Shown in pieces: positions 147 to 4,139 of a stretch of 64,000 nt of DNA (its first letter is position 1; every line of letters begins with the position of its first letter). The notes under the pieces are model-generated. The model was given only the letters and a program-made list of their open reading frames with translations, was not told the origin of the DNA and searched no databases. Origin of the DNA: an uncultured Prevotella sp. (lineage in GTDB: Bacteria; Bacteroidota; Bacteroidia; Bacteroidales; Bacteroidaceae); assembly GCA_945830055.1 (NCBI GenBank), contig CALZXH010000001.1, positions 1-64,000 on the forward strand. Direction: 5' to 3'. The position numbers were made by a program, and so were the translations under genes.

Positions 147-191
147 AAATGTTACTTTGTTACTTTGTTACCCGCCTTTTTCACTATACCC
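147..191 (+). repeat. Iteron-like repeat block, copy A
   Basis: AAATGTTACTTTGTTACTTTGTTACCCGCCTTTTTCACTATACCC; 43/45 identical to the reverse complement of copy C (550-594). Confidence 0.85.
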
Positions 192-257
192 TACCATGTG
201 CCACCCGCTTTACGACCCTGACCAAACATCCGTCTTCCTCCCTCCATACTGCTCTCT

Positions 258-280
258 TACCTATAGGTAGGATAGCAGAC
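258..280. repeat. Inverted repeat arm containing the perfect palindrome TACCTATAGGTA
   Basis: TACCTATAGGTAGGATAGCAGAC; its reverse complement matches 715-737 at 22/23 positions. Confidence 0.85.
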
Positions 281-380
281 GAGAGGTGTTTACACGGAAC
301 GGACAGCAAACAACTCTTTTCTTCCCTTGTTTTTCCTTCTATTCTTCTTATTCTATTATTATAATATATTTCTTAGGAAG

Positions 381-409
381 GATATATATGCATATATATC
401 GCGTACGCG
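381..409. repeat. 20-bp perfect palindrome GATATATATGCATATATATC abutting CGCGTACGCG
   Basis: Read directly; both are self-complementary and share the C at 400. Confidence 0.9.
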
Positions 410-455
410 CGAGATATACTCAATTTCAGAGGCAGGGACGGGCTGACCGCTGCTT

Positions 456-508
456 CTACCCATAGGTATATAAAAAAACGCAGGTAACAAGGTAACAAAG
501 TAACATTT
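456..508 (-). repeat. Iteron-like repeat block, copy B (53-bp unit)
   Basis: CTACCCATAGGTATATAAAAAAACGCAGGTAACAAGGTAACAAAGTAACATTT; about 48/53 identical to 542-594. Confidence 0.85.
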
Positions 509-541
509 GGGGCTTCGGCCGTCGTCCTGACATAGGCATCC

Positions 542-594
542 CTACCCATGGGTATATTGAAAAAGGCGGGTAACAAGGTAACAAAGTAACATTT
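542..594 (-). repeat. Iteron-like repeat block, copy C (53-bp unit)
   Basis: CTACCCATGGGTATATTGAAAAAGGCGGGTAACAAGGTAACAAAGTAACATTT; direct repeat of copy B. Confidence 0.85.
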
Positions 595-656
595 TCAAGC
601 ATGACGGCTGCTGCGTCGGGAAGAAGAAATTTTTTCCACGTGTAGAAAAAAATTCG

Positions 657-701
657 AAATGTTACTTTGTTACCTTGTTACCTGCAAAAAAACATATACC
701 C
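657..701 (+). repeat. Iteron-like repeat block, copy D
   Basis: AAATGTTACTTTGTTACCTTGTTACCTGCAAAAAAACATATACCC. Confidence 0.8.
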
Positions 702-714
702 CCCTGCCCATGAA

Positions 715-737
715 GTCTGCTATCCTCCCTATAGGTA
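715..737. repeat. Second arm of the 258-280 inverted repeat
   Basis: GTCTGCTATCCTCCCTATAGGTA. Confidence 0.8.
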
Positions 738-781
738 AAAGAATCCGGAACAGAGGCTCCCAACATCCTGAACAACCATTG

Positions 782-834
782 GAGGGATGGAACAAACGTT
801 GTAACTTTGTATCATCTCGTTCGTTCCATCCCTC
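782..834. repeat. Inverted repeat downstream of the pectinase gene
   Basis: GAGGGATGGAAC (782-793) and GTTCCATCCCTC (823-834), extendable to 17 nt with one mismatch. Confidence 0.7.
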
Positions 835-857: not shown

Positions 858-3800
858 TTACCTGCAAATAAACTTCTTGCCGCCGCGGATATACATGCCG
901 CCCTGTTTCATCACTTCCACCCTGCGTCCTGTCATGTCATATACAGGAGCATCCATATAGGACCGGGAAGGTGCCGTGAGGTCATTGATACCGTCTGACA
1001 CAGCATCCACCCTGACATTCAGATAGTCAATCCTGCAACGCATCTTTCCGTCCACATAGAAGTCAGCACGAATCTCATCGCCCTTCGTCAGCTTGACCTG
1101 CTGCGAGGCATCATGAGTGACCATGGCATACGACTTCTTGTCACCCCGCCACGATTCAACCTGCTGGTTGTTCACAAAGAGGAAGAATCCTGCGGCACCG
1201 GAGGTCTCGTTCCAGTAGGTAAGACTCAGCGTACAGGTGGCATCTGGTCCGTCCCAAATACCGGTAAGCGAACCCGGTCCGGCTTCTCCCACCGTGGCAT
1301 AGTTGCCGGAAGACTGGTACCAGGAACCGTCGGAATACTCCTTATACACGTATGCGCTGCGTGCCAGACTTTCCGCCTCTGTCTTTCCCTCCAGCATCTC
1401 CACTTTCGGCGAGGAGAAACGCCACTCATCACCTTTCACCTCTGTGCCGTCTGAGGTAACGACATCCACACGCCACAGATACTCTGCGCCATAGTTCAGA
1501 TAGCCGGGATTGATATAGGTATCCGTGGTAGTGCCAACCGTCAAGACAGCCTCAGCGCCATCGGGTTCGGAAACATATACCTTGTATTCCTTGGCATCGA
1601 ATGCCGGACGCCATTTCAGCGTCATCGGTCCACATGCCACCTTCTCTCCCACCGCCTCATGCAACTGAGCATTCGTCTCGCCATCAGCAGGATAGGGCTT
1701 GGATGCCGTTTCTGCAGCAGTAGTAAAAGCATACATCGGCGTGAAGCAGGACGAATTGTCCTCAAAAATGGTCTGCACCTTCCAGTAGTAAGTGGTGTCA
1801 GGCAGCAGCGCCACTTTTCCCGGAGCAGCTCCATTGCTCGAAGCCTCGGCATTGTAAGCCAGCGAGGCAGGTGTATGGCCTATCCATACCCTTGTTTCCT
1901 TGACATTCTCCAGCGGTCCCCACAGCAAACGGGCGTCACAAGCCACCTCCGTGGCACCGTTTCCGGGCCACAGGATTGCCTCTTTTTCCAGGCCCTCTTT
2001 CGGACCGGCATATTCAGCTATCAGAGACGGCAGGGTGCCTGCCTCATCGAGCAGATGGCTGTAGGCATAATACCTGCCGGGCACGAATGAGGTGCCTGTG
2101 GGTTGGTTGAGCGCAGACGACCCGATTGATTTTCCGAAATAGCTGCCCGTCTCCCCTATCTCGCCATAAGAGGCATCATGGGAGGTGGCAGAGTACATCT
2201 GGTTGAAAGGCTTGTTGGCATTGGCCGAGAAATAGTTGTTCTCTGACAGCACCTTCGCCTGAGTGTGCGTGCCGATGCAATAGCTGGAAATGTCTTCATA
2301 ATAGTTGTTGAACACATGGCCCAGTCCGTAGCCTACACGCGGATTGCGTTGGGTGGTCCTCACGAATCCGTTATGGTGGTAAGTGAGCCTTATCTTCCCG
2401 TTGTCTTCATAGTGCATGGTGCCGCTGTTGCATACCGATACCTTGTCATGGTCGTGGAACCGGTTCCATGAGGCGGTGAGATAACTGCTGCCAATGGTAA
2501 AGTCGAGCAGTCCGTCCCAGTCTTCCTTCTCATTGTCGTGTTCACTCGACAGGTCACAGTGATCAACCCACACATGGTGAGCATTGCGACAGGCGATGGC
2601 ATCGGGGTCGGCATCAAAGATGGTGAGATTGCGGATGATAATATTTTCTTTGCCGTTGATATCCAGTCCGATACCATACAGTGTAGCGTCTTTTCCGGCA
2701 CCTACAATGGTCTTGTTGGAGCCCACAGAGATGATGTCTTTTTTTCTATCTACTCCCGTACCTTCCAGTTTTCCCTCAAGGATAATCACTCTGGGTTCGT
2801 TGTCACCTACATAGCGTGCGAAATCCGTGCGGTTATCTACTCTTACCACAGTGCCGCCATATCCTCCGGTCACACCGTTGCGCAGGTCGTTGTAGTTGGC
2901 AAAGCCCACCATTCCGCTCCATTCGTGACTGCCCGCAGGCGCTGCAATCACGGTCTGCTCCATCTGCTTGCAAAGGGCATGCACCTCGGCAGCCCCCCAG
3001 AGCCAGCATCCGATACCGAAATCCTCAAAATTGGGAATACTGTTGTAAGTGATCACCCCTCCGTCTTCAGGTTTGGCGCCCGTGCCTTGCATGTAGCCTA
3101 CAAAGCCCGTATCGTCGTGTACGGCATTTCTCATTGCCTGCCATCCTTTCTTTACGGCAGGCAGATAGGTTGCCTCGTCAAGCAATCCGGTGCGGATGCC
3201 CCATGCCATGCCACCCACGAAGAGTGAGGTACCTGTCATTTCAGGACCTTCGCTCCCTGCTTCACCATAGTTGGAGGGGGCGGCAAGACTCACATTCCAC
3301 GAGCCGTCAGCACGCTGGCAGTCGAGCAAGGCACGGCTCATAGCCAGAAAATCCGACACATATTCCGAGCGATGGCTCTCCGTTTCGGGAGTGAACTGCA
3401 ATACCCTCGCCAACGCCATATACACCCATCCATTGCCTCTGCTCCAGTAGCAGTCCTTGTCTGTTTCCGTAAGGTCTTTGTAGGGCGGGTCGTATTGGTA
3501 GTCACGGTACCAGAGTCCCGTCTCCGTATTGAACAGCGGACTGCCTCCTCCCTTTTTGCTGCCGCCATGCTGGTTGCGGGTATAGGTGTATTTGGTGTAC
3601 ATACGCTCCCAGTAGGACTGGTCACCGGTGATGCTGCCCAACCGTGCATAGATGGGCATCGCCATCTGTATGGCGTCAATCCAATACCAGTCTGCCTTGT
3701 CATCGGTAGCCATCAGTTCGTCGATGCGTTGCTGCACATGAGCCAGTCTTTCCGTCTTGGTCTTGTCTATCAGATACATCTCTATATACGACTGTCCGCA

Positions 3801-4139
3801 GCACAGGAAATCGGCATTGTGCAACTGGCTGTCAGAACAGGTCTGCCACTGGTGGAACTCGCCCCAGTCCAGCGAATACTGCAACCAGTCTTCACGCTGC
3901 TTCTCGCGATAGATATTCAGCAACCCCTCGTAGAACACGCCCCGGGTCCATATCCTGCTGTTCCGTTTTTTTCCTCCCACATAACTGTCAGCACCCACAT
4001 CCGGGGTAGAATCCATAAAATACTTTGCCACTTTCTCGGAAGTGTTCATCACCGTATCGGAAGAAAAGGCATCCGACTGGGCATTGGCCATCAAGGACAA
4101 CGAGAGGGAGGCGGCAATACAAAAGGCTGTAGTTTTCAT
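858..4139 (-). CDS. GH105-like unsaturated rhamnogalacturonyl hydrolase fused to PL1-family pectate lyase, with C-terminal accessory domains and a T9SS-type C-terminal signal
   Basis: N-terminal GH88/105-like sequence (WTRGVFYEGLLNIYREK..., CYWSRGNGWVYMALARVL); central pectate lyase signatures (NIIIRNLTIFDADPDAIACRNAHHVWVDHCDLSS, VCNSGTMHYEDNGKIRLTYHHNGFVRTTQRNPRVGYG); C-terminus VYDMTGRRVEVMKQGGMYIRGGKKF; signal peptide. Confidence 0.85.
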   Translation of the reverse strand: MKTTAFCIAASLSLSLMANAQSDAFSSDTVMNTSEKVAKYFMDSTPDVGADSYVGGKKRNSRIWTRGVFYEGLLNIYREKQREDWLQYSLDWGEFHQWQTCSDSQLHNADFLCCGQSYIEMYLIDKTKTERLAHVQQRIDELMATDDKADWYWIDAIQMAMPIYARLGSITGDQSYWERMYTKYTYTRNQHGGSKKGGGSPLFNTETGLWYRDYQYDPPYKDLTETDKDCYWSRGNGWVYMALARVLQFTPETESHRSEYVSDFLAMSRALLDCQRADGSWNVSLAAPSNYGEAGSEGPEMTGTSLFVGGMAWGIRTGLLDEATYLPAVKKGWQAMRNAVHDDTGFVGYMQGTGAKPEDGGVITYNSIPNFEDFGIGCWLWGAAEVHALCKQMEQTVIAAPAGSHEWSGMVGFANYNDLRNGVTGGYGGTVVRVDNRTDFARYVGDNEPRVIILEGKLEGTGVDRKKDIISVGSNKTIVGAGKDATLYGIGLDINGKENIIIRNLTIFDADPDAIACRNAHHVWVDHCDLSSEHDNEKEDWDGLLDFTIGSSYLTASWNRFHDHDKVSVCNSGTMHYEDNGKIRLTYHHNGFVRTTQRNPRVGYGLGHVFNNYYEDISSYCIGTHTQAKVLSENNYFSANANKPFNQMYSATSHDASYGEIGETGSYFGKSIGSSALNQPTGTSFVPGRYYAYSHLLDEAGTLPSLIAEYAGPKEGLEKEAILWPGNGATEVACDARLLWGPLENVKETRVWIGHTPASLAYNAEASSNGAAPGKVALLPDTTYYWKVQTIFEDNSSCFTPMYAFTTAAETASKPYPADGETNAQLHEAVGEKVACGPMTLKWRPAFDAKEYKVYVSEPDGAEAVLTVGTTTDTYINPGYLNYGAEYLWRVDVVTSDGTEVKGDEWRFSSPKVEMLEGKTEAESLARSAYVYKEYSDGSWYQSSGNYATVGEAGPGSLTGIWDGPDATCTLSLTYWNETSGAAGFFLFVNNQQVESWRGDKKSYAMVTHDASQQVKLTKGDEIRADFYVDGKMRCRIDYLNVRVDAVSDGINDLTAPSRSYMDAPVYDMTGRRVEVMKQGGMYIRGGKKFICR

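Follow-up and report, generated by a model that had tools for sequence, protein, structure and literature searches.

In phage P4, octameric type I iterons are present in both ori1 and crr and are bound by the alpha primase-helicase; the P4 word, GGTGAACA, appears to resemble GGTAACAA. In the origins of SaPIs and other PICIs, an AT-rich region lies between two sets of iterons directly 3' of the rep gene (PMC6092414, PMC7581432). The helicase gene is directly upstream of the SaPI origins, and the Cch2 protein of SCCmec binds to short iterons that lie downstream of the gene encoding it (PMC7581432). The DUF3987 and VirE domains of mobile elements are predicted to be helicases, and the BT4734-like proteins are a family of archaeo-eukaryotic primases (PMC5862659). 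Non-coding repeats have been described in the Bacteroidales as well, namely PINSR, a 188-bp repeat of Prevotella intermedia/nigrescens that is reported to lack terminal inverted repeats and to reach about 180 copies (PMC4755523), and BrickBuilt, a MITE/minisatellite of Porphyromonas gingivalis with 23-nt units and IS5-type terminal inverted repeats (PMC4596501).

How does the gene-free block near the start of the present window, the whole stretch of 64,000 nucleotides of an uncultured Prevotella that was analysed, compare with these systems? Like the SaPI/PICI origins, it has inverted sets of short iterons around an AT-rich stretch and, in relatives and viruses although not in the window, the array is located directly 3' of primase/helicase genes. 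Unlike those origins, the window copy lacks a replicase, an integrase and an att site, possesses additional palindromes, a promoter and a wider gap between its first two arrays, and is one among several orphan chromosomal copies. The likeness to P4 consists of the 8-bp iteron steps and of two separated iteron regions, one of them adjoining the replicase gene; unlike P4, the window has no alpha-like gene. Arrays of three to thirteen boxes bracket BT4734/DUF3987 genes in Bacteroidales elements (genomes G527, G554 and G275), whereas the window contains none of the genes of these elements. The block shares with PINSR the character of a dispersed, intergenic, non-coding Prevotella repeat, PINSR being set apart by its published description; with BrickBuilt, it shares short tandem repeats within a dispersed non-coding Bacteroidales element, but BrickBuilt differs in its units and termini and lacks the iteron/AT-rich layout. 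The reading that we favour is that the block is probably an orphan, replicase-less copy of an origin module of the satellite/island type (SaPI/PICI/P4-like) that has been dispersed as a repeat.

Anatomy of the block

With an rRNA promoter on one side and the 3' end of a pectate-lyase gene on the other, the block fills the gap between the two. On the left, a 16S rRNA operon is transcribed leftwards off the contig, which ends at window position 1; its promoter and leader occupy the minus strand of positions 1-115 (-33 region at 114-107, -7 box TACCTTTG at 91-84). The segment from 1 to ~115 aligns with the sequence that immediately precedes the 16S rRNA gene of Prevotella oral taxon 299 and of Segatella hominis, the SSU rRNA in both comparison records having been identified by Rfam. 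This match and the size of the genus are the basis for calling the host Prevotella-like. The source assembly, a 120-contig draft of 2.35 Mb that is about 86% complete, ends at the rRNA operon. On the right, a GH88 plus pectate lyase gene (858-4139, minus strand) flanks the block and lies outside the element. The absence of genes claimed by the earlier note holds for positions 147-857. No integrase, att site or rpr/rep gene is present in the block or its flanks, so we do not file it as a PICI, and a search of the block for known RNA families gave no match. A plasmid or phage remnant recognizable by direct similarity was rejected, the rRNA leader being the sole match.

The four copies, A to D, that had been read from the letters were all found in register by a repeat search of the window. 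Each is an array of three GTAAC boxes in 8-bp steps, in line with the GTAACAAR steps originally proposed, and the orientation is + - - + when the boxes are read as GTTAC: copy A (147-191, GTAAC boxes 172-151 on the minus strand), copy B (456-508, plus strand, boxes 483-504), copy C (542-594, plus strand, boxes 569-590) and copy D (657-701, minus strand, boxes 682-661). Over 49 nt, copy A (147-191) is 96% complementary to copy C (550-594), copies B and D are complementary at 29 of 29 positions, and B and C are direct repeats of 53 nt at 91%, matching the earlier estimate of about 48/53. The 22-mer GTTACTTTGTTACYTTGTTACC, with up to three mismatches, has four matches in the window against 0.00 expected from 100 shuffles. 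The second inverted pair, first placed at 258-280 and 715-737, extends to 253-280 and 715-742 (28 nt, 93%); its left arm belongs to the palindromic inverted-repeat arm CTGCTCTCTTACCTATAGGTAGGATAGCAGAC (249-280), the motif of which recurs at L010 6079, and its right arm is GTCTGCTATCCTCCCTATAGGTA (715-742).

Copy A is followed by an AT-rich stretch (330-400; 80% A+T, 83% in the best 60 nt), a candidate unwinding region, and then by B, C and D. The stretch contains the conserved core TTTCTTAGGAAGGAT (369-383) and is adjoined by a GC-alternating palindrome, ATATATCGCGTACGCGCGAGATAT (392-417); GCGC blocks adjoin the AT core also in G110, G157, G232, G554, G497 and G527. The gap between A and B amounts to 311 bp, which exceeds the gap in the viral origins. 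The spacer between C and D (595-656) includes an inner hairpin, and C, spacer and D together can be folded into a 30-bp stem (z -8.6). Despite this strong fold, we prefer recognition of the boxes over an RNA hairpin as the conserved feature because, in pairs outside the host genome, the arms differ in their spacer letters without compensation.

An outward promoter region of the Bacteroidota type (745-812, plus strand, -7 TAACTTTG at 802) completes the block; it was aligned by eye to the element-end promoters in G232 and G157, and its distance to the array pair is similar in the window, G232, G157 and G110. This regular spacing, and the proximity of array A, which starts ~40 bp ahead of the -33 region of the rRNA promoter, would be compatible with a multi-site regulator platform, as the earlier note had considered, that serves either the adjacent rRNA promoter or the right-hand outward promoter. 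Such a role nevertheless appears highly improbable and gains no positive support: the other array loci of the host genome are away from rRNA operons, the rRNA leader matches in other species stop short of the arrays, which are not conserved upstream of the rRNA operons of relatives, and orthologous and non-orthologous copies alike have unrelated gene neighbours.

Dispersal in the host genome and the genus

A whole-genome search of the host assembly (G000) detected nine arrays, mostly as inverted pairs, spread over four intergenic loci, which are the window, contig 2 (between a DUF4301-type gene and purF), contig 47 (between a lipocalin-like gene and YjbR) and contig 75 (between a PDDEXK_2 gene and SGNH-MBOAT). 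A unit of ~175 bp (window 562-736) is duplicated on contig 2 at 86%. Another dispersed repeat of this genome, CACAAATCATCAGCAAGCAGTC ... ATTCATCGAACTCACGTTAAAA, is found near two array loci (L011 70-105; L012 7660-7690 and 8060-8095). Among 399 genomes of the genus, the array is present in eight, and the wider block or its arrays are matched in nine.

Complete composite blocks, comprising inverted arrays, CCTAWAGG/GCAG palindromic arms, an AT-rich core that contains TTTCTTAGGAAGGAT, a CGCG palindrome and an outward promoter, are found in G110, G157 (two loci, a and b) and G232, and 25 of the 26 arrays of this composite class consist of exactly three GTAAC boxes. The G110 and G157b copies are orthologous; the G157a and G232 elements are 85% identical over ~480 bp and have unrelated gene neighbours. 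The G157a element is flanked by members of a distinct inverted-repeat family, AATGAAAAATG...CATTTTTCATT (L114 7561-7683), which is matched more than 30 times in G110. The composite block of G275 has the same architecture with GTTGC boxes in place of GTAAC. Its surroundings (contig 51, 63.5-67.7 kb, L116), with a type III R-M methylase gene on one side and a DUF2326/SMC-like gene on the other according to Pfam, might be a defence island.

Could the block, then, be an ordinary non-coding mosaic repeat of the BIME or MITE kind, unrelated to replication, that recombination or some unknown transposase has scattered and that came upon its octamer by convergence? The 86% duplication between the window and contig 2, the ~480-bp element shared by unrelated G157 and G232 loci and the strong hairpin formed by the C/D pair would all fit. 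We nevertheless consider this explanation unlikely, given that the exact three-box array is linked to replicases in 14 of 23 viral contigs (see below), that, in the pairs outside G000, the boxes are kept while the spacer letters drift without compensation, and that no Y1/RAYT transposase is present in G000, G232 or G047. Specifically, REP/BIME with RAYT was rejected on the absence of the Y1 transposase PF01797 from G000 (itself about 86% complete), G232 and G047. As regards the features that define a MITE, inverted arms are present, no target duplication was detected at the loci examined, nor did the empty-site check advised by the earlier note turn up a clean empty site there: for contig 2, the relatives are too distant and without synteny, and the G157a element is missing from G110 but at a site confounded by tandem lipocalin genes.

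Association with replicases

An independent test of the origin reading comes from viruses. The exact 22-base array GGTAACAARGTAACAARGTAAC was found in 23 contigs of IMG/VR, compared with one for its reversed, uncomplemented version, and in 14 of the 23 its position is 10-215 nt 3' of a replicase gene that Pfam identifies as a primase or helicase. The probability of at least 14 such cases by chance is 2e-17, or 1.5e-13 with near-identical contigs collapsed, values that are rough because they presuppose a single replicase in each contig and a target of 220 nt. The linked replicases belong to seven architectures: DUF927 + Cch HTH (8 contigs, four near-identical), PriCT_1 + DUF927, VapE, Prim-Pol + DUF5906, NrS-1 polymerase, BT4734_N + PriCT_2 + VapE, and CHC2/Toprim (DnaG-like). 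In the viral layout, the array is followed by an AT-rich stretch and then by an inverted second array. The control array word GTAGCGGT, in 30 viral contigs, is never 3' of a large ORF, so the viral linkage holds for the GTAAC word only. A search of the viral contigs with the BT4734 protein gave no confirmed match. Two ORFs without Pfam matches, L327:1585-3585 and L308:6342-7289, lie 130-150 nt from a viral GTAAC three-box array and are candidate unknown replicases.

Cellular genomes present a similar picture. In G884, from another family, 7 nt separate the array from the end of a Prim-Pol/DUF5906 gene, with an integrase and an HTH gene alongside, so that this genome joins the 14 viral contigs in having a cognate rep or primase next to the array, as SaPI/PICI origins do. 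In the sister genus g42, G527 carries an element that reads array, peptidase M15, HU-HIG, array - AT-rich - array, S24-like, a 103-aa protein, BT4734_N-DUF3987 and array. The element of G554 is similar, with HU-HIG, 374-aa, 105-aa and BT4734-type genes and with terminal inverted repeats of 53 nt that are 96% identical and 6.2 kb apart. In both genomes, arrays stand at the two ends and in the middle of the BT4734-DUF3987/HU-HIG element, and the order and orientation of the arrays in the replicase-less elements (+ - AT + -) are those of G554 minus the genes. At the end of a BT4734 element in G527 (L278:6227-6316), the GTAAC octamer array has 13 steps compared with the usual three boxes.

When homology was taken as the starting point, the BT4734-DUF3987 gene of G275 was found to have a four-box GTAGC array at its stop; at the far end of an 8-kb segment, this array recurs around a stretch of 83% AT. 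This element, bounded by GTAGC arrays (contig 51, about 90.8-99 kb; L206, L282), has as cargo, by eye, an apparent Vsr-type nuclease and a cytosine methyltransferase. By the same route, such arrays were not found near the second DUF3987 gene of G275, the BT4734 gene of G047 or the B. finegoldii BT4734/DUF3987 locus. The primase/VirE-like neighbours that the earlier note had proposed to look for thus exist in relatives but not beside the host arrays: none of the four G000 loci has an adjoining replicase gene, a BT4734-type replicase was absent by tblastn from the window and ~0.85 Mb of the 2.35-Mb assembly, and the incomplete genome yielded no origin linked to a replicase.

A second use of the word

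The word alone is not diagnostic because G047, G199 and G325 carry the same octamer as plain arrays without the origin anatomy. G047 holds 118 matches of plain GTAACAAR arrays, which are found also in G199, G325 and a few other genomes; they directly follow stop codons, with 30 in the sense orientation relative to the upstream gene against 7. Three 8-bp steps placed after a stop codon provide TAA/TGA in all three frames. Plain GTAACAAR/TRACAARG arrays at or just after stops were noted in G047, G325, G199, G172, G176 and G287 (L074-L087, L060-L073), and a different, highly copied octamer array, the reversed, uncomplemented control pattern, has 88 matches in G778 in a survey of the order.

Tandem 7- and 8-mers of many other words are common in these genomes, and the window arrays might accordingly be simple sequence, one such word among many, possibly acting as three-frame stop signals or as unstructured spacers after genes. 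The strand bias after stops is in keeping with this explanation, which we nonetheless regard as quite doubtful for the window copies: unlike the plain arrays, these have a fixed three-box length and inverted placement, their palindromes and AT core are conserved across species, and the G157a/G232 and G110 copies suggest conservation of each composite block as a whole.

Origin of the block and its implications

Returning to the orphan origin module, we find that its ancestry among origins is well supported by anatomy and association taken together. Weighing against this reading are the lack of a replicase at all four host loci and of a BT4734-type one in the ~0.85 Mb searched, the homology-first cases without arrays, the wide A-B gap, the plain arrays of the same word in other genomes and the failure to detect a clean empty site or target duplication. 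The layout of the window matches the SaPI/PICI origins but the replicase is missing, so we describe the block as one that would work like such origins and is probably descended from them, rather than as a PICI. Two of the options raised in the earlier note, an origin remnant and an undescribed non-autonomous repeat family, thereby survive as two sides of one thing, while the third, the regulator platform, has nothing positive in its favour; "iteron-like" was an apt word, although the match is to origins of the satellite/PICI type and not to classical plasmid iterons.

In intact elements, the product of the neighbouring primase-helicase gene would bind to the GTAAC boxes and then melt the AT-rich stretch. 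In the window and at the three sister loci of G000, what is left would be no more than the origin-like DNA or pieces of it, as a dispersed intergenic repeat. The window copy presumably derives from such an element through loss of its genes and may be inactive without a helper. A bolder variant, which strikes us as rather far-fetched at present, is that orphan origins are kept or spread by exploiting or titrating satellite or phage replicases in trans, the GTAAC word being shared. If so, they would be minimal, gene-less, helper-dependent replicons, or decoys that confer incompatibility-based immunity, and the GTAAC three-box word would be an origin code common to several unrelated primase-helicase families.

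Why should chromosomes contain copies of an origin without its initiator? The question arises because an unannotated intergenic repeat is now tied to the modules with which satellites and phages replicate. A single iteron word shared by DUF927, VapE, Prim-Pol, NrS-1 polymerase and BT4734 replicases would be unexpected. In practical terms, GTAAC boxes repeated three times at 8-bp steps, together with an AT-rich stretch and an array in inverted orientation, constitute a simple DNA signature for finding origins, and this signature could also locate replicases that have no Pfam match.
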